The notes below the pieces were generated by a model. It searched no databases. It was given only the letters and a program-made list of their open reading frames with translations, and had not been told where the DNA came from. From contig NZ_CP042163.1 in the NCBI RefSeq assembly GCF_007725405.1, positions 744,001 through 808,000 of the forward strand: a stretch of DNA of 64,000 bases. Direction: 5' to 3'. Of this stretch, positions 6,744 to 63,050 are shown piece by piece (within the stretch, counting starts at the first letter, position 1; every line of letters begins with the position of its first letter). The position numbers and the translations under genes were made by a program. The stretch is from Shouchella miscanthi (GTDB lineage Bacteria > Bacillota > Bacilli > Bacillales > Bacillaceae_D).

Positions 6744-9700
6744 GTGAGAAATAGGAAGATTGATTATAAGAAGAAAATGCATGCGCGGAACAGAAGGGTT
6801 ACTAAAAAAACAACTGCTATTATTGCTGCTTCATCTTTACTATTCACAACGACTCAACTAGCATTTCCTGCAACAACTAGCTTAAGTCCATTAACGAATC
6901 CATCTGTTGCTTTAGCGGCACCCATTGAACAAGCGTCGTTACTTAATGTTTCGATTTTAGAAAATACATCACTTGTCTCAAATAATGGGGAGAGACAAGA
7001 AAAGAACGAATCTGGAAACTATGATCTTGATTTAACGTTTAGTGGAACGGGTCTTGCAAACGTTGGCTTGGCGGATAACAAAGTAGTTGTTTTCACCCTA
7101 CCTGAAGAACTTCAAGGAAAAGTAGTGGGAAATACAACCGTTACGATTAACGCGCAGCTAACAGCAGTGACACCTGGGGATTTGCCTGGTATATCACCCA
7201 TTATTAATACGGTAGGTACTGCAGTGGAGGCGTTGACAAGTATACCTGGCATTAACAATATCCTGGACTTGAATCCACTAAACACTGCGTTTGATTCGGT
7301 GCGTAGTGTACAAGATTTAGGCGCTTATGAGGTCGAGGTAGCTGGGATTGTCTCTGAAGATGGAACCACGATTACGGTTGATTTCACAGAAGGTCTTGGT
7401 GAATATGTTCGTGAAGCCTTTGTCGAATTCTTAACACCACTTAGGGATGCGATTAATGAACTTGAATATAATGGGCTTGTACCTGGTGTAAGAACAGCCA
7501 TTGAAGCACTTAAAACAGCTGCAAATCCTTTATTTGATTTAATTGACGCTATTGTGGATGGATCTAGTGATCTCTTAACGTCTGCATTAGACGTCAATTT
7601 ATTGGGAAGCACGCAATTTAGGCTACAAACAGAAATAAGCGATCCAATGGTACCAAACGCTGTTGTGAGTGCAGCAGCAATCAATGAAACGTTCATTGAC
7701 ATTGATTTACTGAATGCCATTCGTACTGAAGGAGCAAGACAAAATTTAATTTTTGATGATGAATCTGATGCTGACGCCGATGCTGACGCTGACGCCGATG
7801 CGGATGCTGATGCCGACGCCGACGCGGATGCTGACGCCGACGCTGATGCGGATGCTGACGCCGATGCTGACGCCGATGCGGACGCCGATGCCGACGCTGA
7901 CGCTGATGCGGATGCGGATGCCGACGCTGATGCGGATGCCGACGCAGATGCTGACGCTGATGCTGATGCGGATGCGGATGCCGACGCAGATGCTGATGCG
8001 GATGCCGACGCTGATGCGGATGCCGACGCAGATGCTGACGCTGATGCTGATGCGGATGCGGATGCCGACGCAGATGCTGACGCTGATGCTGACGCTGACG
8101 CTGACGCTGACGCTGATGCGGATGCTGATGCCGACGCTGACGCCGATGCGGATGCGGATGCCGATGCGGATGCTGACGCTGATGCGGATGCGGATGCGGA
8201 TGCGGACGCAGATGCTGATGCTGATGCTGATGCTGACGCTGATGCGGATGCCGATGCGGATGCCGATGCCGATGCGGATGCTGACGCCGATGCTGATGCG
8301 GATGCCGACGCTGATGCTGACGCCGATGCTGATGCTGATGCTGACGCTGATGCGGATGCTGATGCCGATGCCGATGCGGATGCTGATGCGGATGCCGACG
8401 CAGATGCTGACGCTGATGCGGATGCTGACGCCGATGCGGATGCTGATGCGGATGCGGATGCCGATGCAGATGCGGATGCTGACGCTGATGCGGATGCTGA
8501 CGCCGACGCTGATGCTGACGCTGATGCCGACGCTGACGCAGATGCGGATGCGGATGCCGACGCTGACGCAGATGCTGATGCGGATGCCGATGCAGATGCG
8601 GATGCTGACGCTGATGCCGATGCTGACGCTGATGCGGATGCTGACGCCGATGCGGATGCCGACGCTGATGCGGATGCTGACGCCGATGCTGACGCCGATG
8701 CGGATGCGGATGCTGACGCTGACGCTGATGCCGACGCTGACGCAGATGCTGATGCCGATGCGGATGCCGACGCTGATGCTGACGCCGATGCGGATGCCGA
8801 CGCTGATGCGGATGCTGACGCCGACGCGGATGCTGACGCTGATGCCGACGCTGACGCAGATGCTGATGCGGATGCCGATGCAGATGCGGATGCTGATGCC
8901 GATGCAGATGCTGACGCTGATGCCGATGCCGATGCGGATGCTGATGCCGATGCTGATGCGGATGCGGATGCCGACGCTGATGCGGATGCGGATGCTGACT
9001 CAGACTCAGATTCTGATGATGATGATCCGGCTGAAGGAGTATTTCCAGACGCCCCGAGATCAACACCAATCTTTGAGGATGATTTGATACTAACTGGTGA
9101 AGGGCTCGTTGGATCAACTGTCTACGCACTTGTTAACGGTCAAATTATTGGTTCAAGTGAAGTGTCAGCAATCAGAGCACTTGGAATTATTATTGACAAT
9201 AACGGTACGTTCTCAATTGAGCTGGATGAGCCGTTACCAGCTGGAACAATTATTGAATTTTATCAAATTGATGAAGATGGTCAGCAAAGTGAATCTTCTT
9301 ATGCAAGGGTTTTACCAATTAGCGACGATGGTGACGCTGATGCGGATGCTGATGCCGACGCTGACGCGGATGCTGACGCCGACGCCGATGCGGATGCCGA
9401 CGCTGATGCCGACGCCGATGCGGATGCTGACGCTGATGCGGATGCTGATGCCGACGCTGACGCGGATGCTGATGCGGACGCCGATGCGGATGCTGACGCT
9501 GATGCTGATGCGGATGCTGATGCTGACGCTGATGCGGATGCCGATGCGGATGCGGATGCGGATGCCGATGCGGATGCTGACGCTGATGCGGATGCTGACG
9601 CCGATGCGGATGCTGATGCGGATGCCGACGCTGATGCTGACGCCGATGCTGACGCCGATGCCGACGCTGATGCCGATGCGGATGCTGACGCTGACGCCGA

Positions 9701-10205
9701 TGCTGACGCTGATGCGGATGCGGATGCTGACGCCGACGCTGACGCGGATGCCGACGCTGACGCCGATGCTGATGCGGATGCCGACGCTGACGCCGATGCT
9801 GATGCGGATGCCGATGCAGATGCTGACGCCGATGCAGATGCTGACGCTGACGCTGACGCCGATGCGGATGCCGATGCGGATGCCGATGCGGATGCTGACG
9901 CTGATGCCGACGCTGATGCTGACGCTGACGCTGATGCGGATGCCGACGCTGATGCTGACGCGGATGCGGATGCCGACGCTGATGCGGATGCTGACGCCGA
10001 TGCGGATGCGGATGCTGACAAAGATAGAGACTATGAGCGAATTGATAATCGTTATGGAGGGGACTCTGGCAAAGGCTATGATGGCAGTGGCGATAAGCTG
10101 CCGAAAACAGCTACCCATGCTTGGGCTTATGGAGCTGCTGGAGTTGTTGCACTTCTTTCAGGTCTATTTGCAAGAGTGTTCGGTCGAAATAGGAAGAATG
10201 GATAA
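6744..10205 (+). CDS. giant acidic Asp-Ala repeat surface protein with LPKTA sortase signal
   Basis: A 1153-residue secreted wall protein. A basic N-terminus and hydrophobic stretch form a signal peptide probably cleaved after VALA near residue 58. Residues about 60-340 form a unique domain. Residues 342-751 are an uninterrupted run of 205 Asp-Ala dipeptides, followed by [10 protein letters not shown], an Ig-like domain at about 765-855 ([15 protein letters not shown]), then a second run of 114 Asp-Ala dipeptides at 864-1091. The C-terminus has LPKTA at 1119-1123, a hydrophobic helix and a basic tail. Sortase-anchored proteins with LPXTA are typical partners of class D sortases, and one is encoded two genes downstream. 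It resembles so-called processed acidic surface proteins and is analogous to Ser-Asp repeat stalks. Function in ion or proton retention at an alkaline surface is inference. Confidence 0.9.
7767..8996 (+). repeat. first Asp-Ala coding repeat block (205 dipeptides)
   Basis: Hexanucleotide repeat GAYGCN running 1230 bases. The codons vary freely between GAT/GAC and GCG/GCT/GCC/GCA, so amino acids are conserved but DNA is not a perfect repeat, indicating selection on the protein. Longer sub-blocks recur, for instance GCGGATGCCGACGCAGATGC, suggesting past recombination-based expansion. Confidence 0.97.
9333..10016 (+). repeat. second Asp-Ala coding repeat block (114 dipeptides)
   Basis: Same GAYGCN hexamer logic over 684 bases, separated from the first block by an Ig-like domain. 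Codon mixture again differs between units. It leads straight into the short linker before the LPKTA sorting signal and so forms the wall-proximal stalk. Confidence 0.97.
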
Positions 10206-10224
10206 GCGTTACCAATAAGAATGC

Positions 10225-10254
10225 GTTAGAGGGGAGAATCTTCTCCCCCCTAAC
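10225..10254. promoter_or_regulatory. strong intercistronic hairpin
   Basis: Near-perfect inverted repeat GTTAGAGGGGAGAA / TTCTCCCCCCTAAC with a two-base loop, between the surface protein stop and the next ribosome binding site. It lacks a T-run, so it may be an RNA processing or stability element, or a partial terminator, that sets different expression of the abundant surface protein and the downstream genes. Confidence 0.6.
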
Positions 10255-10276
10255 CTATTAATTAGGAGGAATGTAC

Positions 10277-11977
10277 ATGGAAACATCGCAATCGAAATTA
10301 GCAGACTCATTAGAAAAAAAGCTAGATCTTTTTTATGAGACTCTTCAAAAAGAAGGGCATTTAGGTTTTCTGAAAAACACAACACGAGTCATTCTTTTTC
10401 TATCGATTGGAAGTCCAAAGCGCAGGGCAGATGTTTTCCAGGCTAGTGAGACGCTTCCATTAAAAGCATGGCGAGTTGTTAAGAGACAAGCGCTTCAGCA
10501 TTATAAAGAAAGTCATTATGATTGGGTGAAATTGGATATTGTTGAAAATGAAGAAAGCCATAGCGTAAATGAATTCGTGAAGATCATAACAGAAACAAAG
10601 AAAAACTATTATCGAAAAGGAATTTCTTTCGACAAACAGTATCGGTTTGCTTTTTTAGAGCAGGAGATAAACGGAAACGCCATAGTGCAAATTGATAAGC
10701 ATACAGGAAGAGGTTTTATCCAAGAAAAGAATTTAAAAGAGTATGCTAAGAGTCATCGTCCTTTAATGCCTAAGCTTGATCTTAGTAGGATCGATAAGAT
10801 TCGAACGTTTACTACACGTGGATTCTTTTTTGAGGAAAATCGCCTATTCCCTACGCACAACACAAATTTAGATAATGGACGGAGAAAGACCCCGTTAACA
10901 ATAGATGAAGTAGAACGTTTGGTACGAGAAAGCGCCACTTTTCTAGCAAACCAAGTAAAAGATACAGGGGCATTTGTATATGGGTATTTTTCTTGTTTTG
11001 ATAAGGAAATTCAGTTCTATAATGTGCTAAGACATGCGAGTACGTTGTATTCCATGTTAGAGGCTTACGAGCTTTACCCCGATGACGTTTTGGAGAAAGC
11101 TATAAAAAGAGGGCTACATTATCTCGTCAATCACTGTACACGTAACTATACCATTCAATCCGTTCGAGTTGCTTATATGATCGACGGCGTCGGAGAAAAT
11201 AAAGAAATTAAGCTTGGCGCAAATGCGGCTGCTATATTGGCATTAACAAAATTTCAGGAAGTTTTTAAACAAAATCAGTATGTAGAGATAACTCGTTTAT
11301 TAGGGGAAGGTATAGTACAGATGCAAAAACGTGATGGCAGTTTTAATCATGTTTTGTACCCCGAAGATCTACAGGTGAAAGAAGATTTTAGAATTATTTA
11401 TTACGACGGGGAAGCGGCATTTGCACTAATGCGTCTTTACGAACAGGATCCACAATCAAGATGGATCGATGCAGTTGAGCTCGCCTTTCGTTATTTTATC
11501 GAAAAAAAATATTGGAAGCATCATGATCACTGGTTGAGCTATTGTACCAATGAGCTAACTAAGTATCGACCACGTAAAGAGTATTTCGAGTTTGGCTTAC
11601 ATAACGTTTTGAAAAAGCTAAACTTCATTAAGAAAAGAGAAACAACGTATCCTACGTTTCTTGAACTTACGTTAGCCGGGTGGAATATGGTATCACGATT
11701 AAGGGCGCATGGATTGGAAGGATTGCTTACCCAAAAAGAGATTCAGCGATTAGAAGAAACATTTCACATCCGAGCAGAATATCAAAGAAATGGCTTCTTC
11801 TATCCAGAGGTAGCCATGTACTTCAAGAAGCCGAGCAGGATTTTAGGTAGCTTCTATATTCGTCATCACTCATTTCGTTCACGGATTGATGATACCGAGC
11901 ATTATTTGTCAGGGTATGTAGCCTATTACAAGCTCTTGAAAAATCGCTCTGGCTATAAAGAAAGGGGGGTTTCGTAA
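10277..11977 (+). CDS. uncharacterised protein of surface locus, possible alpha/alpha-toroid fold
   Basis: A 566-residue protein without signal peptide or membrane helices. Two ATGs lie in frame; the AGGAGG is one base before the first, so the second (METSQSK) is preferred. The N-terminal 180 residues are mixed alpha/beta with no motif I recognise. From about residue 215 the sequence is helical with repeated short motifs resembling six-hairpin glycosidase or terpenoid-cyclase toroids (HASTLYSMLEAYE, YYDGEAAFALMRLYE, HDHWLSYC). It sits between the acidic repeat protein and its presumed sortase, overlapping the latter's likely start, so a role in making, modifying or exporting the surface structure is plausible but unproven. 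I do not assign an enzyme activity. Confidence 0.7.
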   Translation: METSQSKLADSLEKKLDLFYETLQKEGHLGFLKNTTRVILFLSIGSPKRRADVFQASETLPLKAWRVVKRQALQHYKESHYDWVKLDIVENEESHSVNEFVKIITETKKNYYRKGISFDKQYRFAFLEQEINGNAIVQIDKHTGRGFIQEKNLKEYAKSHRPLMPKLDLSRIDKIRTFTTRGFFFEENRLFPTHNTNLDNGRRKTPLTIDEVERLVRESATFLANQVKDTGAFVYGYFSCFDKEIQFYNVLRHASTLYSMLEAYELYPDDVLEKAIKRGLHYLVNHCTRNYTIQSVRVAYMIDGVGENKEIKLGANAAAILALTKFQEVFKQNQYVEITRLLGEGIVQMQKRDGSFNHVLYPEDLQVKEDFRIIYYDGEAAFALMRLYEQDPQSRWIDAVELAFRYFIEKKYWKHHDHWLSYCTNELTKYRPRKEYFEFGLHNVLKKLNFIKKRETTYPTFLELTLAGWNMVSRLRAHGLEGLLTQKEIQRLEETFHIRAEYQRNGFFYPEVAMYFKKPSRILGSFYIRHHSFRSRIDDTEHYLSGYVAYYKLLKNRSGYKERGVS

Positions 11978-12639
11978 TTAAAGCGTGGAGAATCATAGGC
12001 AATAGCTTAATGGTAGTTGGCATCTGTTTGCTGGTTTGGTTTGGGTATGATCACTATCAGACGAAGTCTATGCAAAATCAATCATTGGCAGAAGCTCAAG
12101 AGCGACTATTTGTTGATTTGGGAAATGATCATTTATTAGATCCATCGAACTTGACGATGACAAATAAAGATGAACCACAGCAGCGATCATTTCTCTCGCC
12201 AAGTAGCGAGCAAGCAAGGGAGTCCTTCCAATCGATAGACATCAATCAAGGTGAGTCTTTCGCTATTTTAGAGATTGAGTCTTTAAATCGACAGCTTCCT
12301 ATTGTAGAAGGGACGAATCCAGAAGAGTTGCAGCGTGGGGTTGGTCATTATCGTGATTCTGTTTTACCAGGTGGCAATGAACAAATACTTTTATCTGGGC
12401 ACAGAGATACGGTCTTTCGCGATTTCGGTCAATTAGAGATAGGTGATCTATTTATTATGCATATGGAATATGGTTCATTCCGGTATAAAATCGAGGAAAC
12501 TGATATCGTAGATGCCGATGATCGAACGGTCATTCGGGAGATGGGTGAAGAAGTATTGGTAGTCACAACATGCTACCCCTTTGACTTCATCAACCACGCC
12601 CCGGAACGATTCGTTATCTATGCTTATCCCATTGATTAA
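11977..12639 (+). CDS. srtD: class D sortase, probable ATT start
   Basis: A membrane-anchored transpeptidase that cuts a sorting signal and links the protein to the cell wall. Catalytic residues are visible as the His in LSGHRDTVF, the Cys in VTTCYPF and the Arg in PERFVIYAY (residues 142, 199 and 211 counting from the ATT). The first ATG at 12010 has no ribosome binding site and would cut the membrane helix short. An ATT at 11977, overlapping the last base of the preceding stop, lies 7 bases after AAAGGGGGG and gives a normal basic N-terminus (MKAWRIIGNS) plus full helix, so I place the start there. Class D sortases use LPXTA-type signals, matching LPKTA in the repeat protein. The 3' end overlaps the convergent regulator by four bases. 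Confidence 0.85.
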   Translation: MKAWRIIGNSLMVVGICLLVWFGYDHYQTKSMQNQSLAEAQERLFVDLGNDHLLDPSNLTMTNKDEPQQRSFLSPSSEQARESFQSIDINQGESFAILEIESLNRQLPIVEGTNPEELQRGVGHYRDSVLPGGNEQILLSGHRDTVFRDFGQLEIGDLFIMHMEYGSFRYKIEETDIVDADDRTVIREMGEEVLVVTTCYPFDFINHAPERFVIYAYPID

Positions 12640-13088
12640 TGTTGAAAGGTCTTCGTCCTATAGTCGCTGAATAACGCTTCTACTAGCTCATCTTGATTTG
12701 TTAACAAATCAGAAAGCGTGTATTGATCAAGCACATTCAGGTAGGCATCGAGCGCTTCTTGAAGCGCTCGTTTTAATTTACAGGCGGGTTCTAAAGCGCA
12801 AAAACCGTCTTTTTTCATACACGTAACAAGCTCCAAGTTTTCATATTTTCGAATGATGTTTCCGATTTGTATATACTCCGGAGCTTGCGCTAGTTTATAC
12901 CCACCGTTTCTTCCGTTTACCGAATCAATATAGCCTGACTTGTTTAATTCCCACGCAATTTTTTTTAGATGATTAATAGAGACGTCATAGACGCTAGAAA
13001 TCTCATTTAATGTAATAATTTCATTCTCTTTTATCCCTAGGTACATGAGCGTACGTAAAGATGTATCGGTGAAAATGGTCAATTGCAT
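12636..13088 (-). CDS. nsrR: Rrf2-family regulator, NsrR-like
   Basis: A 150-residue winged-helix regulator. The N-terminal half carries the Rrf2 helix-turn-helix and wing (VSINHLKKIAWEL, GRNGGYKL). Three cysteines at 90, 97 and 103 form the iron-sulfur binding cluster motif of NsrR, and the following ALDAYLNVLDQYTLSDL matches the NsrR dimerisation helix. NsrR senses nitric oxide through its cluster and represses detoxification genes. The first Cys spacing is one residue shorter than I expect for Bacillus subtilis NsrR, so the exact ligand chemistry is uncertain. Start is supported by AGGGAGAGCC before ATG. No target gene is adjacent: the sortase converges on it and the PTS operon lies upstream. 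Confidence 0.75.
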   Translation of the reverse strand: MQLTIFTDTSLRTLMYLGIKENEIITLNEISSVYDVSINHLKKIAWELNKSGYIDSVNGRNGGYKLAQAPEYIQIGNIIRKYENLELVTCMKKDGFCALEPACKLKRALQEALDAYLNVLDQYTLSDLLTNQDELVEALFSDYRTKTFQH

Positions 13089-13338
13089 GGCTCTCCCTCT
13101 TTTCTTTGTTTGTGTTTTTTCTCTCTTTTTAAAATTCTGTTTCTATTAACAATGTAGCATCTTAACACATCGCAAAAAACTTGTATGTGGCATACACATT
13201 TAGAGCTGGTGAAACAGAAGAGAGTGAAAAAGGTTAGAGTGACAAGGGTTTGGTAGAGTTTACTGATCAATGTGAGGACAGGTTGGGAAATATTTAGTCT
13301 ATTAATGAGGGGAAGCGATGAATGGTTGTAAAGAATCT

Positions 13339-13366
13339 AAAAAACAGCCCCCTTTTAAGGAGCTGC
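13339..13366 (-). terminator. terminator of the PTS operon
   Basis: Minus-strand stem CAGCTCCTT / AGGGGGCTG followed by TTTTTT, eight bases past the SIS gene stop. Confidence 0.85.
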
Positions 13367-13373
13367 TGCTTCA

Positions 13374-14114
13374 TTACATATAGTGAATTTGGTTTTTATA
13401 GTTTGTCATCATCTGTTCGTTATAGCTATCTCCACCATCGATGTTTGCGCTGCGGAAAATGGGGATCTCTTTTCCCTTCGCTTCAAGCTTCTCAATAAAT
13501 TTGAGTACGATGGAATGAATAACAAAGCTTCCAGAAATCGTCGAAGTTGGAGCCACTTTCTGTGAGAGAGACTGAATGGAGACTGCTGCATCTCCAGGTT
13601 CTCCATAATTATCAATCACAAGATCACTCACTTCAAATAACCGTTTCCCAGAAGAGTGACGAGAAGTAACGCCCATTGAATAGGTGAGGTTCGTCAACGA
13701 AATAACGTTCATTCCCCGTGCTTTCGCTTCTATAGCTAGATCAATTGCCACAGGGTTTCGACCGGATACAGAATGAATAAAGACAACATCGCCTTGTTGA
13801 ACAGGCTTTGAATCAAGAATAATTTGCCCAAACCCTTCAAGTCGTTCCAATTTAGAAGTAAGTGTAATTGGTTCGACATTTAGCATTAATGCAGGACTGA
13901 AGAGCGGGTTAAAGAGTGCAAGCCCTCCTGCGCGGTAAAACGCATCTTCAGCCACAATGCCTGCGTGGGAAGCGCCAAAGATATAGAGAGAGCGACCATT
14001 TTCGACTGCCTCCTCCATAAGTGTTGCTGCTTGTTCAAGAGTGGATTCTTGTTCTTGTGAAATCCGTGTAAGGATTTGCTCAATGGATTGGTAATACTGT
14101 TTCATATAAGACAT
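13374..14114 (-). CDS. SIS-domain sugar phosphate isomerase-like protein
   Basis: A 246-residue protein of the sugar isomerase (SIS) fold, close to the UPF0309 group. The N-terminal region is helical; the phosphosugar-binding SIS motifs follow (LYIFGASHAG near residue 40 and VVFIHSVSGRNPVAIDLA near 105). It probably isomerises or binds the phosphorylated sugar delivered by the PTS encoded upstream. I chose the ATG giving MSYMKQYY because CCAGGAGG lies eight bases upstream; an in-frame upstream extension would start inside the EIIC gene. It is the last gene of the five-gene operon and overlaps no neighbour. Substrate is unknown. Confidence 0.82.
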   Translation of the reverse strand: MSYMKQYYQSIEQILTRISQEQESTLEQAATLMEEAVENGRSLYIFGASHAGIVAEDAFYRAGGLALFNPLFSPALMLNVEPITLTSKLERLEGFGQIILDSKPVQQGDVVFIHSVSGRNPVAIDLAIEAKARGMNVISLTNLTYSMGVTSRHSSGKRLFEVSDLVIDNYGEPGDAAVSIQSLSQKVAPTSTISGSFVIHSIVLKFIEKLEAKGKEIPIFRSANIDGGDSYNEQMMTNYKNQIHYM

Positions 14115-33216: not shown

Positions 33217-34311
33217 TTAATCAACTCCTAATTTTAATAGGTTTTTCTTTGAAGAATAAGCTTCGCGTAAATATTTTAGAGAGAGATCAGTTCGCTTCTG
33301 TTTTTCAAAATAGATCGCTAATTCATCTGCCATTTCTTCAATTTCGAAGTGTAGGTCATGGTCTTTTAACATTTGGAGAGACCGGTCAATGAGATAATGG
33401 TTCTCGTCAACGTACAAGCCCTTTAATATGGAACAATTTGCAATGAATTCTGTCATATTAAAATACTTTGCCTCTTGTAATCCTTCTTTTAAGAAGATAA
33501 CTGCGGTTTCCATTTCATTAAGCTTGAATAGCGTTAAAGCTAAATTATATTTTGTTTTTGTGATGAGTGGGTTTGTTTCTGTCCCCATCTTTTCTAAGAC
33601 CTTCTCATAATATCCTCTTGCGGCAGAATAGTTTTTGTAACGATATTCATTAATACCGAGCATACGAAGAACAATGACTTCAGCAACGGGGTAGTTACGT
33701 GCACTTACAAGATTTTCTTGCAAGATGTCATTTGCTTTTTCATAATTATCTGTTTCAGAAAATAAACCAGCTAACAAGTTATAACTGAAAATGGTTTTTT
33801 CCGTGTACTGAAGACGTTTGAACGTAACAATTGCATCTTCTAAGTATGAGCTAGCAAATACATATTGATTTATTCTGTATAAACTTGACCCCATGTAATA
33901 ATGAAATTCTGCCTCTTCTGCGTCATCTTTTACATATTCTAGCAATCGCTCTGCTTTACGAAATAATTTAATTGCACTGCGATAATGCTCTTGAAGAAAT
34001 TCATGCTGACCACTAATAAAATAATAGTAATAATGTAGGAGATTATCCATGGAACTTTTTACAATAGGGTCAATGCGATTAAACATTTCGTCGCCTGCTT
34101 CTCTATCTGTTGTTTGATCCATCATCATGTTAAAGCGGTACTCGACAAGGGAGTAATAAGCAAGAATTTGGTCACTTTCCTCCATTTTATTAAGCATGTC
34201 CTTAATTTCAGCTTGCAGATGAATCGCTTGATCAACGGATCGAGCAATAATGCAACTGTACCATTCTACAATCTTCGCCCCGACAATTTCTGAGCGAATG
34301 AAGTCCGACAT
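33217..34311 (-). CDS. Rap family TPR regulator (response regulator aspartate phosphatase type)
   Basis: A 364-residue cytosolic helical protein: an N-terminal three-helix bundle (about residues 1-75) followed by six or seven TPR repeats (for example EEAEFHYYMGSSLYRINQYVFA and PLITKTKYNLALTLFKLNE). Length and layout match Bacillus Rap proteins, which either dephosphorylate Spo0F or block DNA-binding regulators such as ComA and are inhibited by a Phr peptide. The phr gene follows after one base. Direct target is not predictable. Ribosome binding site AAGGAGGGGG. It lies downstream of a peptide transporter ATPase on the same strand. Confidence 0.88.
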   Translation of the reverse strand: MSDFIRSEIVGAKIVEWYSCIIARSVDQAIHLQAEIKDMLNKMEESDQILAYYSLVEYRFNMMMDQTTDREAGDEMFNRIDPIVKSSMDNLLHYYYYFISGQHEFLQEHYRSAIKLFRKAERLLEYVKDDAEEAEFHYYMGSSLYRINQYVFASSYLEDAIVTFKRLQYTEKTIFSYNLLAGLFSETDNYEKANDILQENLVSARNYPVAEVIVLRMLGINEYRYKNYSAARGYYEKVLEKMGTETNPLITKTKYNLALTLFKLNEMETAVIFLKEGLQEAKYFNMTEFIANCSILKGLYVDENHYLIDRSLQMLKDHDLHFEIEEMADELAIYFEKQKRTDLSLKYLREAYSSKKNLLKLGVD

Positions 34312-34485: not shown

Positions 34486-36219
34486 TCAGACATTCGTAGT
34501 GATTTTCTCATATACAGCCGATCTAGCAACCCAATGATGTGAGGCTTGTTCAACCAATTCATGATCTGCCTCTTCTTCAATAAAGGGTAATGGCAGCGTC
34601 GGAACTGGCTCATAGCGACGCAGGCTAGGATTGGTAATCGGTATGGCAGCCAACAAATTTTTTGTGTAAGGGTGGTGGGGTTGTTCGAAAATCTTTTTTG
34701 TCGATCCCATTTCGACTATTCTCCCCTTGTACATAACAGCGACGCGATCGCAAAATTGCTGGACCATCGAGAGATCATGGGCAATAAAGAGATATGTTAG
34801 CCCAAGCTTCTGTTGAAGGTCTTTGAGTAGCTCGATCATTTGGGTCTGAATGGATGCATCGAGTGCAGAAAGAATTTCATCACACACAATAAGCTTTGGT
34901 TGAACTGCCAGTGCCCGCGCAATGCCAATTCGTTGTCGTTGCCCACCTGAGAATTCGTGAGGGTAGCGATAAGCCATGTCACGGTCTAAGCCTACTAATG
35001 TTAGGAGTTCAACGACACGGGTGTAACGCTCTTGCTTCGTCTGTACTAATTGATGCAAATCAAGTGCTTCGCCAATACTATCAATAATTTTCAGGCGTGG
35101 ATCTAATGAGGCATATGGGTCCTGAAAGATAATTTGAATATGGCGACGCATGTGTTTTAATTCGTTTGGTGTCAGATGCCCTAGGTCAAAGCCTTCATAT
35201 AGAACTTCTCCACTAGTCGGTTTATGCAAATGAAGCAGCGAACGACCAGTTGTTGATTTTCCAGATCCAGACTCACCGACAAATCCAAATGACTCGCCTT
35301 CATAAATGGTAAAGGAAACATCGTTGACTGCTTTCGTTACATGCCCTTTTGCTAATTGAAAATACTGTTTTAAGTTGCGAACTTGAAGCAGCGGCTTGTT
35401 ATCTGAAAAAGTAGGTTCTTCTTTATCCGTCATCATCTTAGGAAAAGCATCCAGTAAGCGCTTCGTATAAGGATGTTGTGGGTAATCAAAGATGTCTGTT
35501 GCCTGATTTTCCTCTACAATTTCTCCTTCTTTCATTACGATTACTCGATCACACAGTTCTGCTACGACACCGAAGTCGTGTGTAATAAGCAAAATGGATG
35601 TACCTGTCTCAGCTTGAATGTCTTTTAATAAATCTAATAGTTGAGCTTGCACCGTTACATCGAGTGCGGTAGTTGGTTCATCTGCAATAAGGAGGCGAGG
35701 TTTGCATGCAAGAGCGATGGCAATAACGATGCGCTGCCTCATTCCGCCTGAAAATTCATGAGGGTACTGTTTAAATCGCTGTTCAACTTCTGCAATGCCG
35801 ACTTTTTCCATTAGTACCAATGCTTCTTGTTTAGCTTTATGAGGGGTAAGCTTCTGATGTTTCCGAATGCTTTCTGTTATTTGTTTGCCAACTGTCTTAG
35901 TCGGATTTAAAGATGTCATTGGATCTTGGAACACCATTCCAATTTCTTTACCACGAATACGCTGCATCTTTTTCTCAGGTAAATCTAGTAAATTAGTTGA
36001 TAAGAATTCAATTTGACTATCATCACCATAGACAGCAGAAGGAGAAAGTAGTTGCATAATCGCTTTCGCTGTGACGCTCTTGCCACTACCTGATTCTCCA
36101 ACGATGCCAAGGGTTTCTCCTTTATTAATCGTGAAACTTATCTGTTTGACCGCTTCAATATAATCATCACCATTTATAAAGCCAACTGATAAGTCTGAGA
36201 TGCGCATTAATTGCTCCAT
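34486..36219 (-). CDS. peptide ABC transporter ATPase, fused OppD-OppF type
   Basis: A 577-residue protein with two complete peptide/nickel-type ATPase domains. First: Walker [11 protein letters not shown], signature EFSGGMRQR, Walker [13 protein letters not shown]. Second: [19 protein letters not shown] and [12 protein letters not shown], where the usual Pro after DE is Ile. Each domain is followed by the C-terminal oligopeptide motif ([16 protein letters not shown] and [15 protein letters not shown]). It energises the permeases encoded divergently from 36363. Fusion of both ATPases in one chain resembles GsiA/YliA. Start has GGAGGATTTTC before ATG. Confidence 0.92.
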
Positions 36220-36362
36220 TGAAAATCCTCCGTTTACGTTCTATTTCTTATCATAAAATTAAATCCCGATTAAATCAATATACTTAATTGACTTAACAGG
36301 CAAGCGGTGCTATATTCATACATACATTTATAGATTTTTTTATAGTTGGAGGTGATGAGAGA

Positions 36363-37718
36363 TTGTCCACGTTGCGAGTCACAGCCTTTATCGCTTCTCA
36401 ATATGATAAAGCGATGCAGCAACCATCGTATCGTTTTTTACTGTTGTTGCTCGGATTACCACTACATATCATTCGGTTGGTCGTTGTGCTAGTACAACCT
36501 TCGACAACAACTGTTTTTGCGGAATCCGAACGTCGACGGCAAGAATTAGTTGATCAAGAAAAGAAAAAACAAGCTTTTTTTAAGCAAGAGAAATCAGTAC
36601 AAGTAACAAGCCAAATTGTGGATGCACGACTTAAACAAGAATTAAATGGCCAAAACGAAGGAGAGCTGCTTCAACGACTACGAAGAGATGTGTCAGCTTT
36701 TTTAACAAAGCCAGTTGGCTTTACAGTGGGCCTTGTTCTTGCATTGCCTATGTACGTACTGCTTATGATTTATGCGAATCCATACGTTAAATACATTGCT
36801 GAGCGCTTGCTAATGATGGTGTACGTTGTGTTCGGCGTAACCGCACTCGTATTTACGATCCTTTATTTATCACCATTTGATCCAGCAATAAATTTATTAG
36901 GAGAGCAAGCGTCAAAAGAGCAAATTGAAGCATTTAATCGGGTTTATGGGCTTGATCAAGCATACTTTACTCAGCTGTGGCAAGCGGTTCAAGGCGTATG
37001 GACATTTGATTTAGGCCAGTCGTACGAAGGAAATGAAGAGGTTGTTCAAACCATATTTCGTAGGTTTCCAGTGACACTACAGTTAACGCTTTTATCCCTT
37101 ATTTTAGCGATTGTGATTGCGGTACCAGCTGGTATTTATGCAGCTGTAAAACGACATTCATTTTATGATCAGTTCTTTATGTTTGTTGCATTAATTGGGC
37201 TTTCAATTCCTAGTTTTTGGCTAGGTCTAGTCATGATATTGCAGTTTTCGATTCAACTAGGCTGGCTCCCGGCAACTTACAGTAGCACGAACAATCTTTC
37301 GTTGCTGATGCCAGCAATTGTGCTTGGAACGAGTTTAACAGCTGCGGTTGCGCGAATGACACGTTCCTCAACACTGGATGTCATACAGGAAGATTATATG
37401 TTGCTAGCAAAAGCTAAAGGACTGTCTGGATGGACGGTTATCGTAAAGCACGCAGTACCGAATGCGTTAATTCCTGTTGTCACCATCATTGGTCTTCAAT
37501 TTGGTGGAATGCTTGGTGGTGCTGCCGTTGTGGAGAAGGTCTTTAACATTAGTGGATTAGGTAGTTATATTGTGGATAAACAATTTATTCCTGATATACC
37601 AGCTGTACTTGGCGGTGTTATTTATATAGCGATTGTGATTTCGATTATTAATTTATTGGTTGATTTACTTTATGCATTCCTTGATCCACGGATACGAGCA
37701 AAAATGAAAGAATACTAG
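36363..37718 (+). CDS. peptide ABC transporter permease, DppB-like with N-terminal extension
   Basis: A 451-residue permease. The C-terminal 310 residues are a normal DppB/OppB permease (YIAERLLMMVYVVFGVTALVF onwards, EAA-like loop SGWTVIVKHAVPNALIPV). The first 140 residues are extra: a hydrophobic helix at about 26-45, a highly charged coil (ESERRRQELVDQEKKKQ, then LKQELNGQNEGELLQRLRR) and another helix at about 118-138. Typical DppB proteins are about 310-340 residues. TTG start with GGAGGTGA seven bases upstream. Followed 15 bases later by the partner permease. Confidence 0.88.
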   Translation: MSTLRVTAFIASQYDKAMQQPSYRFLLLLLGLPLHIIRLVVVLVQPSTTTVFAESERRRQELVDQEKKKQAFFKQEKSVQVTSQIVDARLKQELNGQNEGELLQRLRRDVSAFLTKPVGFTVGLVLALPMYVLLMIYANPYVKYIAERLLMMVYVVFGVTALVFTILYLSPFDPAINLLGEQASKEQIEAFNRVYGLDQAYFTQLWQAVQGVWTFDLGQSYEGNEEVVQTIFRRFPVTLQLTLLSLILAIVIAVPAGIYAAVKRHSFYDQFFMFVALIGLSIPSFWLGLVMILQFSIQLGWLPATYSSTNNLSLLMPAIVLGTSLTAAVARMTRSSTLDVIQEDYMLLAKAKGLSGWTVIVKHAVPNALIPVVTIIGLQFGGMLGGAAVVEKVFNISGLGSYIVDKQFIPDIPAVLGGVIYIAIVISIINLLVDLLYAFLDPRIRAKMKEY

Positions 37719-37733: not shown

Positions 37734-39173
37734 GTGGATCGAGCTAGAAAACAGTTTACATTTCGTCAGGTTCGCTTCTTCTTCTTTTTATCGACTGGAT
37801 TTTTTCTTCTGTTAACGTTAGTGAATCTAAACGGTAGGGGCGAATATGGTGGCTTCTTTCTTTATACATCTATCCAATTTATCATACTGATGTTGCACGG
37901 CTTCCTTCTTTTTCTTGTTCATAAACGTCGCTATAAAGACAATGAAAGAGATGGCGTTAGCAAAGGCTTAGCGTGGGTACTGTTATTCGGTGTTTTTACA
38001 GGGAATGTCTTTGCGTCATTAGCTGCATTCTATGTCGTGAAAGAAAAACGAACTGCAACGACGATTCTTGCCTTTTATATGATTCTTGCAGATGTGCTCG
38101 TCATTCTTGTGTCGTTAGTGAATTTATTTAAGCCCTACGTGGCAAATACATTTATCCCATCTATGATTCTTTTATTTAGTGTATTGCTTATACACCTGTT
38201 GTTCTTTTTTGCACTTCCATTCATTCAGAAGTCAACGAGGAATAGAAAGCGGGGTCTAGGAATTCTCCTGTTACTAACAGTTGTAACAGGAAATCTATTC
38301 GTCTTATTCGTTCTCTATACAATGTTCATTCAAGAACAACAGAAGAGAGGGCTACTAGAAAAATTAATTTCTTACCCAGCGCCGATGATTGGATTATTTT
38401 TCATTCTATTTTTATTTATGATATCTGTTAGTAGTTATGGTGTTTTTGATTACGGAGATGCTATTACCAATAATTACAGTACGATTCTAGCTGAACCAAG
38501 CCTTGCCCATCCGTTCGGCACAGATAATTATGGGCGTGATGTATTTTCACGCGTCATATTTGGGGCACGGATTTCTTTAATTGTAGGGTTTGTTGCAACC
38601 CTTGTTCCGTTTGTCATTGGAGGGATTTTAGGAGCTATTTCCGGTTATTTCGGCCGTCGTTCAGATAATGTGATTATGCGTTCTCTCGACGTTTTGTATG
38701 CTATTCCTGATATCCTGCTTGCGATTACCATAATAGCGGCCTTCGGTGCAAGTACAGTCAATTTAATTTTGGCTTTAAGTGTAGGAGCGATTCCCGGTTA
38801 TGCACGAACGATGCGTGCCAATGTATTACAAGTATCCAATCTAGAATATGTTGAATCTGCTCGTGCTTTAGGAGCAAATCATATAAAGGTTTTAGTGAAG
38901 CATGTCATTCCAAATGCCATGTCTCCAATGATAATTCGGTCAACATTAACAGTTGGCACCGCAGTTTTGGCGACAAGCAGCTTAAGCTACCTTGGTTTAG
39001 GCGTTGAACCACATATACCAGAATGGGGCAATATTTTAAGGTTAGGAAGCTCCTATTTAGAAAGTCAGCCTCATCTTGCTTTATTTCCAGGTCTAGCAAT
39101 CATTTTACTCGTATTGTCGTTTAATTTTTTAGGAGACGGCTTACGTGACGCAACCGATCCACGTTTATCGTAA
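37734..39173 (+). CDS. peptide ABC transporter permease, DppC-like with long membrane extension
   Basis: A 479-residue permease. The last 260 residues are a standard DppC/OppC module (HPFGTDNYGRDVFSRVIFGARISL and the EAA loop SARALGANHIKVLVKHVIPN). The first 210 residues add about six hydrophobic helices not found in normal DppC proteins of about 300 residues. GTG start with TTAGGGGGTGAGC upstream. It lies in the operon between the DppB-like permease and the binding protein. The added membrane domain may recruit a partner or form a second module; that is inference. Confidence 0.88.
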   Translation: MDRARKQFTFRQVRFFFFLSTGFFLLLTLVNLNGRGEYGGFFLYTSIQFIILMLHGFLLFLVHKRRYKDNERDGVSKGLAWVLLFGVFTGNVFASLAAFYVVKEKRTATTILAFYMILADVLVILVSLVNLFKPYVANTFIPSMILLFSVLLIHLLFFFALPFIQKSTRNRKRGLGILLLLTVVTGNLFVLFVLYTMFIQEQQKRGLLEKLISYPAPMIGLFFILFLFMISVSSYGVFDYGDAITNNYSTILAEPSLAHPFGTDNYGRDVFSRVIFGARISLIVGFVATLVPFVIGGILGAISGYFGRRSDNVIMRSLDVLYAIPDILLAITIIAAFGASTVNLILALSVGAIPGYARTMRANVLQVSNLEYVESARALGANHIKVLVKHVIPNAMSPMIIRSTLTVGTAVLATSSLSYLGLGVEPHIPEWGNILRLGSSYLESQPHLALFPGLAIILLVLSFNFLGDGLRDATDPRLS

Positions 39174-39196: not shown

Positions 39197-41014
39197 ATGA
39201 AGAAACAATGGGGACTAACACTCGCGGCTTTTGCTTTGGTGGCACTAAGTGCTTGTAATGTCACAACACGTGACGATGTGGAGGGAGAGGCATCAGACGT
39301 TGAACCGCCAGCAGAAGCAGTTGACATAGAATTACTGGCAATGAGTAGCAACGAACAAGATATCAACATTTTACGTGATCAGTTAACGTCTAATGGATTT
39401 ACGGTTTCAATTAACCAACAGCCTGATTATGGCAGCTTTGTTTCGCAGCGAGATGCTGGCAATTATGATATTGCTATCTCTAGCTGGACGACAGTGACAG
39501 GAAACCCTGATTATGCGATTCGTTCATTATTTAAATCAGATGGTGACAATAGTTTAATAGACGATGCCGATATTGATGCACTTATTGAACAAGGTTCAAC
39601 CGAATCACCAGAAGAGTATACCGATACGTATCGTGAATTAGAAGAAACTCTAGTAACCGAGAATGCCTATATCGTTCCACTCTATACGTCTATGAAAAAC
39701 CAGGCGTTTAATCAAGATGTGCTACAAGAGGAATCGGTTCGTCTATCAAAATCACGCGCATTTGCTTGGGACAGTGTTCGGTATGTAAATGAAGAAGACC
39801 AAGAGGAAAGACCGCTTGTACTGACTCAAGCGATTTCAGAATTAACATCCCTTGACCCGATTAAGGGGAATGACGGTTCAATTAATCAACTGAATACGAA
39901 TATGTATGTTCGTTTAGTGAATTTAACCGATGATGATGAGATTACAGCGGATGCCTCTCTTTCATATGAATACGCCATTGCAGAGGGAAATGAGGATTAC
40001 TATTTCGTTTTACGAGATGATCTCTTCTTTGCGGCGGTAGAGGGTGAAGATGTGGTAGAAACAGAGGAGCGTGTAGGAATTGAAGACGTTATTTTCTCTT
40101 TAGAGAGAGCGTCTAATCGCGATTCTGTGCCAGATCATCGGACGTATACCCTTCATGAACATATCGGTGAAGTGACGGCTGTTTCCGATATAACCGAATT
40201 AGAAAACGCGACATTGGCTGGAAGCTCAGATTCAATTCTTGAACAGTTGGAATCTGGTCTTGATCAATCGATTGATTCCCTTGTCACAGACAAAGATGCT
40301 GCGAATTCAGAGGAGGGGGCTTATCAAGTTGTGAAATTGACGACAACTGAGCCGTTCCCTCAAGTATTAAATTACTTAGCTCATCAATCAGCTGGCATTG
40401 TATCGAAGTCGCAAGTCGAATCAGTGAACACCTATAACGTTGAAGAGTTTGATGTTAATACAGACATTCCTTATGGCGATCAGCGTTTAGTGACAGAAGG
40501 CAGTGGTTTAGAGAATAGTTTGTATGCAAGCGGTCCGTATATCATGACGCATAAGAACGACTATGAAGCAGTATTTTTGAAGAACCCAGGTTATCAAGCA
40601 GGAACAGAGTATGAGCCAACAATTGAAGAAGTACGGGTTCGATTTATAAGTGACTCTGATTCAGCACTTTCGGCTTTACGTAGTGGGGAAATTGATATGT
40701 ATTACGGCGTACCGGAAAATAAAATGGATCTTGTTGAAGGTGATGAAAAGCTTCAACTACAAAGTATTCCAAGTAACGGTGTAACGTATCTCGCGTTCAA
40801 CACTTCTAACCGCGATGTAGCAGAAAGCGTTGATTTACGAAAAGCGGTTCTTTATGCAATTAATCAGGATGAAATTATTCAAGTATACAATAATGATAAA
40901 TTGCCAGCGTACTCAACGCTCAGCCCACTCGTTGATACAGGGAATAAGCTTGAAGCAGATCAAAACAAAGTCTATGAGCATTTAAATGCTTATCTTGAAA
41001 GCAAGGATGAATAA
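39197..41014 (+). CDS. peptide-binding lipoprotein (SBP family 5), apparently circularly permuted
   Basis: A 605-residue lipoprotein with lipobox LSAC (Cys20) and an acidic linker. Residues about 43-170 match the C-terminal lobe of family 5 binding proteins (LRDQLTSNGFTVSINQ, NYDIAISSWTTVTGNPDY, DIDALIEQGS, TENAYIVPLYTS). Residues about 207-590 then match the N-terminal and middle parts (TQAISELTSLDPIKG, FVLRDDLFF, EDVIFSLERAS, ASGPYIMTHKNDYEAVFLKNP, LRSGEIDMYYG, LRKAVLYAINQDEI), and the chain stops where the C-terminal lobe should begin. So the family order is rotated. It delivers peptides to the divergent two-permease, fused-ATPase transporter. Confidence 0.85.
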   Translation: MKKQWGLTLAAFALVALSACNVTTRDDVEGEASDVEPPAEAVDIELLAMSSNEQDINILRDQLTSNGFTVSINQQPDYGSFVSQRDAGNYDIAISSWTTVTGNPDYAIRSLFKSDGDNSLIDDADIDALIEQGSTESPEEYTDTYRELEETLVTENAYIVPLYTSMKNQAFNQDVLQEESVRLSKSRAFAWDSVRYVNEEDQEERPLVLTQAISELTSLDPIKGNDGSINQLNTNMYVRLVNLTDDDEITADASLSYEYAIAEGNEDYYFVLRDDLFFAAVEGEDVVETEERVGIEDVIFSLERASNRDSVPDHRTYTLHEHIGEVTAVSDITELENATLAGSSDSILEQLESGLDQSIDSLVTDKDAANSEEGAYQVVKLTTTEPFPQVLNYLAHQSAGIVSKSQVESVNTYNVEEFDVNTDIPYGDQRLVTEGSGLENSLYASGPYIMTHKNDYEAVFLKNPGYQAGTEYEPTIEEVRVRFISDSDSALSALRSGEIDMYYGVPENKMDLVEGDEKLQLQSIPSNGVTYLAFNTSNRDVAESVDLRKAVLYAINQDEIIQVYNNDKLPAYSTLSPLVDTGNKLEADQNKVYEHLNAYLESKDE

Positions 41015-41060
41015 AAAAACGAGCCTTTCAGTCGGTAAAGATGAAGCGCTAAAGCGCAAA

Positions 41061-41337
41061 AGAGGCTGGGACATAACGAAAAGTAGTAGTTGAAAAGACG
41101 AATAGTCTAAAATATGCTGAGTAGCACCGCTACAGGAGAATCCTTCGCTTTCCGGGGACACGGCCTCAGCCTCCTTTGTGAAAAACCGCCACTCCAGAGT
41201 CTTCAGACACGTGCTGATCCCCCAGGAGTCTTCGGATTCTCCTTCCGCTCATTTTCATATAAAACGAACGACGAACGTTCCTATTTTCAGGAATGTTCGT
41301 CATTTTGGTCTGTCTATCTACTTTTGTCCCAGCCTCT
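41061..41337. mobile_element. MITE-like interspersed repeat with GGCTGGGACA termini
   Basis: A 277-base non-coding element with terminal inverted repeats AGAGGCTGGGACA and TGTCCCAGCCTCT, extended by AAGTAG / CTACTT close to the ends. It carries an internal 12-bp hairpin at 41270-41301 (GACGAACGTTCC / GGAATGTTCGTC) and GC-rich segments unlike the flanks. It contains no transposase. Similar GGCTGGGAC-ended repeats are scattered in Bacillota genomes. Copy number here cannot be seen from one window. Confidence 0.65.
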
Positions 41338-62603: not shown

Positions 62604-62717
62604 CTCTTATCTGCCACGCACAATGCGCGAGAGAATTAGCACCTTGAATCAGTCTAGGGACTGAAACAGGTTGCCGGGCTTCAACGGGCTCGTCCCTCCA
62701 CCTGCTCTTTATAAGAG
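62604..62717 (-). ncRNA. SAM-I (S-box) riboswitch controlling mtnWXBDE
   Basis: Minus-strand RNA with P1 arms CTCTTAT / ATAAGAG, the conserved AGGTGGAGGGA core, GAAGCCCGGCAACC, and a final GGTGCTAATTC. These are the S-box hallmarks. SAM binding should promote the terminator just downstream and shut off the operon when methionine is plentiful. Confidence 0.94.
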
Positions 62718-62912: not shown

Positions 62913-63050
62913 CTCTTATCGAGAGTTGGCTGAGGGATTTGGCCCTTTGACGCCCAGCAACCGACCTTCCGTATATTATTTTATGGAAACCTCTTAGAAG
63001 GTTCAAGGCACGGTGCTACATCCAACAGGTTATCACCTGAGAGATAAGAG
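62913..63050 (+). ncRNA. SAM-I (S-box) riboswitch controlling mtnK
   Basis: P1 arms CTCTTATC / GATAAGAG enclose GAGAGTTGGCTGAGGGATTT (core), GACGCCCAGCAACCG, and CACGGTGCTACATCCA. Same S-box class as on the other strand but with different peripheral loops, so not a recent duplicate. Confidence 0.94.

Follow-up and report, generated by a model that had tools for sequence, protein, structure and literature searches.

The lipoprotein encoded at positions 39197-41014 (+) of the window, by which we mean the whole 64,000-nucleotide stretch of Shouchella miscanthi DNA that was analyzed, is very probably a circularly permuted family 5 substrate-binding protein (SBP) of a GisABCD-like importer, as judged from sequence comparisons and with the substrate left out of the claim. 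The gene is a single open ATG frame, directly preceded by AAGGGGG (read by eye from the sequence), whose 605 aa product is assigned as a permuted GisD-like lipoprotein on the basis of Pfam, rotation of the chain, hhalign, and full-length homologues. From the 5′ end, all on the + strand, it specifies i) a lipoprotein signal peptide reaching to the lipobox Cys20 (39197-39256), identified by the lipobox cysteine in homologues, with some 23 residues of low-complexity linker behind it; ii) a moved segment of roughly residues 44-195 (39326-39781), which Pfam, a PDB match, and hhalign equate with the canonical C-terminal part, and whose exact ends are a judgement call on the hhalign alignment; iii) a junction of about residues 196-206 (39782-39814; hhalign) bridging the former C- and N-termini; and iv) the canonical N-terminal and middle parts, approximately residues 207-605 (39815-41011; Pfam, rotation, hhalign), which stop at the point where the moved segment would start. 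We take the moved segment to be the second half of domain III together with the tail of domain I, with boundaries as in OppA.

Membership in family 5 is supported by the Pfam profile SBP_bac_5 (PF00496), which scores 140.1 bits against the whole protein (gathering cut-off 32.4), matches 20 of 20 members of the permuted family at E ≤ 0.001, and is the sole Pfam match at that threshold in those 20. The match is crossed: profile positions 301-367 of 368 fall on residues 52-118 and positions 12-261 on residues 261-589, and the canonical N-to-C order of the profile becomes collinear only after rotation. Aligned separately to SBP_bac_5, as the initial annotation had proposed, both parts are recognized, the early one at 28.2 bits (E 1.4e-6, under the 32.4 bits required of a whole protein) and the later one at 117.2 bits. 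The best PDB sequence match, 5u4o, is crossed as well, with chain residues 379-489 at residues 56-162 and 188-333 at 432-579; the two crossed matches show that the earlier observation at 39197-41014 was right. When residues 1-40 were dropped and residues 205-605 placed ahead of 41-204, the rotated chain gave one SBP_bac_5 match (profile 12-367 of 368), and 5u4o and 1uqw each aligned as one collinear stretch. Rotation raised the Pfam total only by 4.6 bits, to 144.7, and left the best NCBIfam score nearly unchanged (53.7 to 54.8); its effect is the merging of two pieces into one, not a higher profile score. A search of solved structures with the permuted-family profile (best E 3.6e-21) returned canonical proteins only among the matches to 1e-8.

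The same partition emerges when the permuted family (20 rows) is compared by hhalign with an alignment of eight canonical SBPs from the same genome. In natural order, the later part of the chain takes up canonical positions 1-387 and the earlier part 391-549, with an overlap at query columns 126-159, where the first alignment enters the signal and linker of the canonical proteins. With the order rotated, one alignment covers canonical 50-549 (E 1.2e-44, about 22% identity). At the level of aligned sequence, a cut at canonical 387/391 and the presence of all canonical sequence parts are confirmed. This split bears out the initial annotation on two further points, that the chain ends where the moved part would begin and that no complete second C-terminal lobe stands at its end; a duplicated C-terminal lobe, considered as a candidate, was ruled out by the partition at 387/391. 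A rotation scan agrees: the window protein's best single match scores 66 bits in natural order and 100 bits once the chain is rotated, all five permuted proteins that were scanned (39 distinct ones being available) score best rotated, and all eight canonical controls, each scored leave-one-out by a profile built without itself, peak no more than 15 residues from the natural start. Nor did a whole-genome search with the family 5 profile turn up a second crossed match, since the eight other proteins each aligned as one collinear piece. Crossed Pfam matches, rotation scan, and hhalign thus concur that the C-terminal part comes first and the N-terminal and middle parts follow, and the latter two analyses find the segments of an ABC binding protein rotated and none of them duplicated.

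Because the two parts complement each other when mapped onto the canonical protein (1-387 plus 391-549), and because rotation yields one continuous Pfam match, we think it improbable that the chain is instead made of two independent domains, a small N-terminal look-alike of an SBP C-terminus followed by a truncated or divergent SBP, even though identity to canonical members is only about 22%, the moved part alone stays below the Pfam cut-off, conservation is lower at the junction than in either of the other two stretches compared (see below), and an AlphaFold2 model built from an alignment of only four sequences (the window protein, L010, L011, and L012) reached a mean pLDDT of 38 and a pTM of 0.29. 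An SBP truncated of its C-terminal domain III and domain I portions would moreover be an open fold, yet the arrangement is kept in 34 genomes.

Many Bacilli share the rotated order. The window genome holds one full-length copy, and homologues occur in 3 of 13 genomes of the genus and 4 of 41 of the family (the window's own included in each case). Within an even sample of 398 Bacilli genomes, 36 match at E ≤ 1e-15, and 34, again counting the window's own, show a full-length, collinear match to the window protein, in keeping with the suggestion in the initial annotation that homologues with the same order be sought. The two left out are G413, where only residues 383-602 are matched in a 316-aa frame, and G396, where only residues 444-579 are matched at 37% identity in a 543-aa frame that is probably canonical. 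Four of the 34 (G217, G277, G441, and G449) show one TAA within the match; since their start-to-stop frames (L024, L028, L040, and L033, respectively) reach query residue 601 or 603, we take this TAA to be the end stop. A profile search across the phylum at E ≤ 1e-60 found 4 of 398 genomes, the window's own and three of the same class. Named records with homologues include Shouchella oshimensis, Sporosarcina koreensis, Oceanobacillus luteolus, and a plasmid of Metabacillus dongyingensis. In viral contigs we found no relative of the permuted family, and a canonical query likewise found none; a further search of these contigs yielded one distant canonical family 5 protein (L079). As a separate observation, G413 (L045, 9186-9833) retains only the last part of a permuted SBP, about 68% identical to residues 391-602, with no matching permeases in the 19-kb stretch, and is perhaps a remnant.

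The homologues also share their ends. In an alignment of 20 members (pairwise identity 36-94%), a stretch of 18-34 residues separates the moved segment from the lipobox cysteine in every member, and all 20 extend 8-13 residues past the last conserved valine at the C-terminal end; Cys20 is invariant in the 20, and each of the 39 distinct homologues, the window's own among them, has a lipobox-like cysteine. Selection was estimated from close pairs only, more distant pairs being saturated at silent sites. Against G060 (97% identical and labelled the same species), dN/dS is 0.044 overall, 0.018 for residues 41-180, and 0.035 for residues 216-605; against G003 (99% identical), the corresponding values are 0.076, 0, and 0.074. 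Junction residues 181-215 give 0.37 (G060) and 0.15 (G003), based on few changes, indicating weaker purifying selection than in the flanks. Together, conservation, lipobox, and dN/dS rule out both a faulty assembly and a gene in decay. The notion that the order reflects a local rearrangement, a pseudogene, or an assembly error in this strain has a negligible chance of being correct, given that the same order is kept in independent assemblies down to 38% identity, that dN/dS lies at 0.04-0.08, and that the lipobox and operon are intact; both assembly error and pseudogene were ruled out as candidates by the conservation in 34 genomes, the locus, and dN/dS. These findings also point to one ancient permutation.

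Upstream of the SBP gene lie two permease genes on the same strand, and beyond them a divergent gene for a fused two-cassette ATPase. Permease C (37734-39173, +) is GisC/NikC/GsiD-like with about 210 extra N-terminal residues (Pfam, NCBIfam, hydropathy, extension search); permease B (36363-37718, +) is GisB/NikB/GsiC-like with about 140 (Pfam, NCBIfam, hydropathy); and the GisA/GsiA-like ATPase (34486-36219, -) was assigned by Pfam, NCBIfam, and locus comparison. The gap between ATPase and permease B (36220-36362) presumably holds divergent promoters, judging by position only. Several other features of the window were noted in passing: a Rap-type aspartate phosphatase (33217-34311, -; RapH_N and TPR repeats by Pfam) adjoins the ATPase; an intergenic element of about 240 bp at 41050-41300, directly 3′ of the SBP gene, occurs in 8 copies in the genome, its own included, at 86-100% identity; and two SAM riboswitches (Rfam RF00162) stand back to back at 62604-62717 (-) and 62913-63050 (+), within less than 450 bases.

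We compared 23 regions, drawn from 19 of the 36 matching Bacilli genomes, G023, and the loci of three named records. The ATPase, two N-terminally extended permeases, and the SBP are complete in 22 of them, the remaining one being L045 with its SBP fragment only, and the ATPase is fused and divergent in 21. In L053 (G449; 6892-13792), the permuted SBP is in line with a pair of unfused ATPase genes (327 aa each), an arrangement that is possibly older or independent. The permease extensions are not covered by the NCBIfam models listed, which begin no earlier than residue 142 in permease B and residue 208 in permease C; by a hydropathy count they add two hydrophobic segments, around a charged stretch, to permease B and six to permease C. 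With the permease C extension alone as query against the 398 Bacilli genomes (E ≤ 1e-6), 33 genomes were found, the window's own included, all of them among the 34 with a permuted SBP and none in the rest of the sample; the 34th, G342, has a shorter and more divergent permease C that the extension query does not match. The proposal in the initial annotation that the rotated SBP may match the altered permeases is thereby supported as a correlation, in that extended permease C and permuted SBP co-occur; because one operon lineage is involved throughout, this link reflects co-inheritance and is not proof of interaction. Separately, a three-helix unit seems to be present twice in the permease C extension (37734-38384), whose halves are 31% identical over 45 residues (half-against-half blastp, E 1e-4, run with neither composition correction nor masking).

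The closest studied counterpart is the staphylococcal glutathione importer GisABCD-Ggt. In S. aureus, the layout gisA/gisBCD-ggt specifies glutathione import; with GSH or GSSG as the sulfur source, growth is reduced by transposon insertion in any one of the five genes, and less GSSG is retained after exposure when the system is deleted, according to PMC10355420, which also reports a lipid-attachment site in GisD, nine predicted transmembrane regions each in GisB and GisC, and the complete GisABCD-Ggt only in a Staphylococcus clade. With this system the window locus shares the divergent fused ATPase, the two permeases, and the SBP lipoprotein. Three genomes of family f43 (L042-L044, which we label the staphylococcal type) share with the GisD locus, as described in PMC10355420, the divergent ATPase, permeases in line, and ggt next; their GisD-like proteins have the same permuted order as the window protein. 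Relative to L042, the window protein is about 40% identical, has no adjacent ggt, and is accompanied by a longer permease C, the extension in L042 being shorter. In an S. aureus record from a plasmid collection, the ATPase and both permeases, as well as the beginning of the SBP, are represented by pieces that are 71-89% identical to L042, except for one short piece at only 44%; the SBP pieces cover L042 residues 1-242, a span that takes in the signal and the moved segment and then enters the canonical N-terminal part. As the staphylococcal-type members stand in the gisA/gisBCD-ggt layout, and in view of this partial S. aureus sequence, S. aureus GisD itself appears to be permuted. We note that this contig, L078 (NZ_CP077929.1, 19360-26982), is a linear S. 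aureus "plasmid" with Gis pieces in mirrored copies, and that it has the look of a folded-back assembly artefact rather than of a plasmid.

Whether the importers outside staphylococci carry glutathione is a separate matter. By analogy, the cargo of the importer would be a peptide, probably glutathione; for members outside staphylococci, glutathione is a guess of about even odds, because no ggt lies near the locus there. A ggt gene stands directly beside the SBP in 3 of the 26 genomes searched, all of them f43 (in L042, 3′ on the same strand), and near the locus in none of the other 23. Somewhere in the genome, ggt is present in 23 of the 26, the nearest on the same contig outside f43 being about 63 kb off; in the window genome it lies at G000:C1:1408058, far from the SBP locus. 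It is accordingly a serious possibility, if a little less than even, that the permuted SBP serves other peptides or nickel-type complexes outside staphylococci: besides the missing ggt neighbour, identity to the staphylococcal-type proteins is only about 40%, and the NCBIfam models for nickel (Opp5A/NikA), GsiB, and SapA score alike on the window protein, all far under cut-off. What speaks for glutathione is the shared architecture, including the unusual permease extensions, along with YliB/GsiB (1uqw) as second-best PDB match and the ggt that the window genome has elsewhere. Either cargo is compatible with a circularly permuted SBP of a GisABCD-like importer, which leaves the substrate aside. 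Among locus neighbours, which were compared by eye only in 19 regions, gene pairs with carboxyltransferase domains of the 5-oxoprolinase type occur one gene from the locus in two genomes that belong to a single genus (L058, 5476-7087; L061, 12569-14180; Pfam on six neighbour proteins). We take these pairs to be PxpBC; a link to the gamma-glutamyl cycle is possible, and the cases are too few to weigh.

Canonical members of family 5 (cluster C), such as OppA, DppA, GsiB, and MppA, have the same sequence parts and the same kind of ABC partners as the window protein; what differs is the order, which is rotated in the latter. The E. coli glutathione importer GsiABCD is likewise close, in that the window locus also contains a fused ATPase and GsiC/GsiD-like permeases, and GsiB (1uqw, formerly YliB), the second-best PDB match, has the canonical order and is collinear with the rotated chain; gsi is a single operon, unlike gis, according to PMC10355420. 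A lipid-anchored ABC binding protein that is circularly permuted in nature has been described in TpMglB-2 (Tp0684), a "Type Ic" glucose-binding lipoprotein that binds ligand and changes shape, has homologues in Gram-positives, and led its authors to propose a subclass with the suffix c (PMC4990184). Tp0684 differs in its Type I/cluster B fold, its cut site, and its unrelated transporter. The window protein lacks the cluster B sugar-binder sequence of this Type Ic group, no such model being among its Pfam and NCBIfam matches. Among the matches listed in the open-licence full-text literature we found no report of a permuted family 5 binding protein, and the main texts on Gis (PMC10355420, PMC12510641) contain no word starting with "permut". 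The initial annotation, which was not aware of such a permutation in this family, agrees with the literature listed, with the qualification that the family itself is not unstudied, since it seems to include staphylococcal GisD; permutation in family 5 is apparently new, whereas a permuted ABC binding protein as such is known from TpMglB-2.

How might the rotated protein work? The chain would begin with the lipid-anchored cysteine and a flexible linker and then enter a loop of domain III, presumably the loop that follows a helix of the canonical "DPEKAKELL" type; from there it would run to the old C-terminus, pass over a few bridging residues into the old N-terminus, and stop again at this domain III loop. 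Together, both parts would complete one ordinary Venus-flytrap protein that holds peptide between its lobes and passes it to the two permeases, with the fused ATPase as power source. Canonical N- and C-termini both lie in domain I, as in OppA. Binding and docking should proceed as in GsiB or OppA, but the tether would pull on domain III; the physical difference would be a lipid anchor that sits, as we assume, on domain III rather than on domain I as in canonical cluster C proteins. That the anchor would lie on another face of the protein follows from a cut within the domain III part of the sequence, given the OppA boundaries. The extended permeases may offer a matching docking surface. As for origin, it is likely that a canonical gene was duplicated in tandem and its copies fused in frame, after which the first copy would have lost its middle while keeping signal and linker, and the second copy its signal and tail.

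We wish to raise a broader scenario, which we consider rather doubtful as a whole: these systems, including staphylococcal GisABCD, could form an ancient, separate class of type I peptide importers in which permutation moved the tether to domain III, this shift co-evolved with membrane-embedded N-terminal extensions of both permeases, the extensions hold or guide the re-oriented SBP, and the SBP is the first permuted one in family 5 (cluster C). We found one experimentally described natural precedent for a permuted ABC binding protein, TpMglB-2, which belongs to a different fold class; the protein described here would be a second case, in the large family 5 class and tied to a change in both permeases, and a rotated SBP is apparently at work in the glutathione importer of a well-studied species. 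The permutation may account for the low scores against every canonical family model, and it is a caution that changes of order are invisible in domain-based annotation. It also opens an old question to testing: is it of any consequence which of its lobes tethers a binding protein to the membrane?
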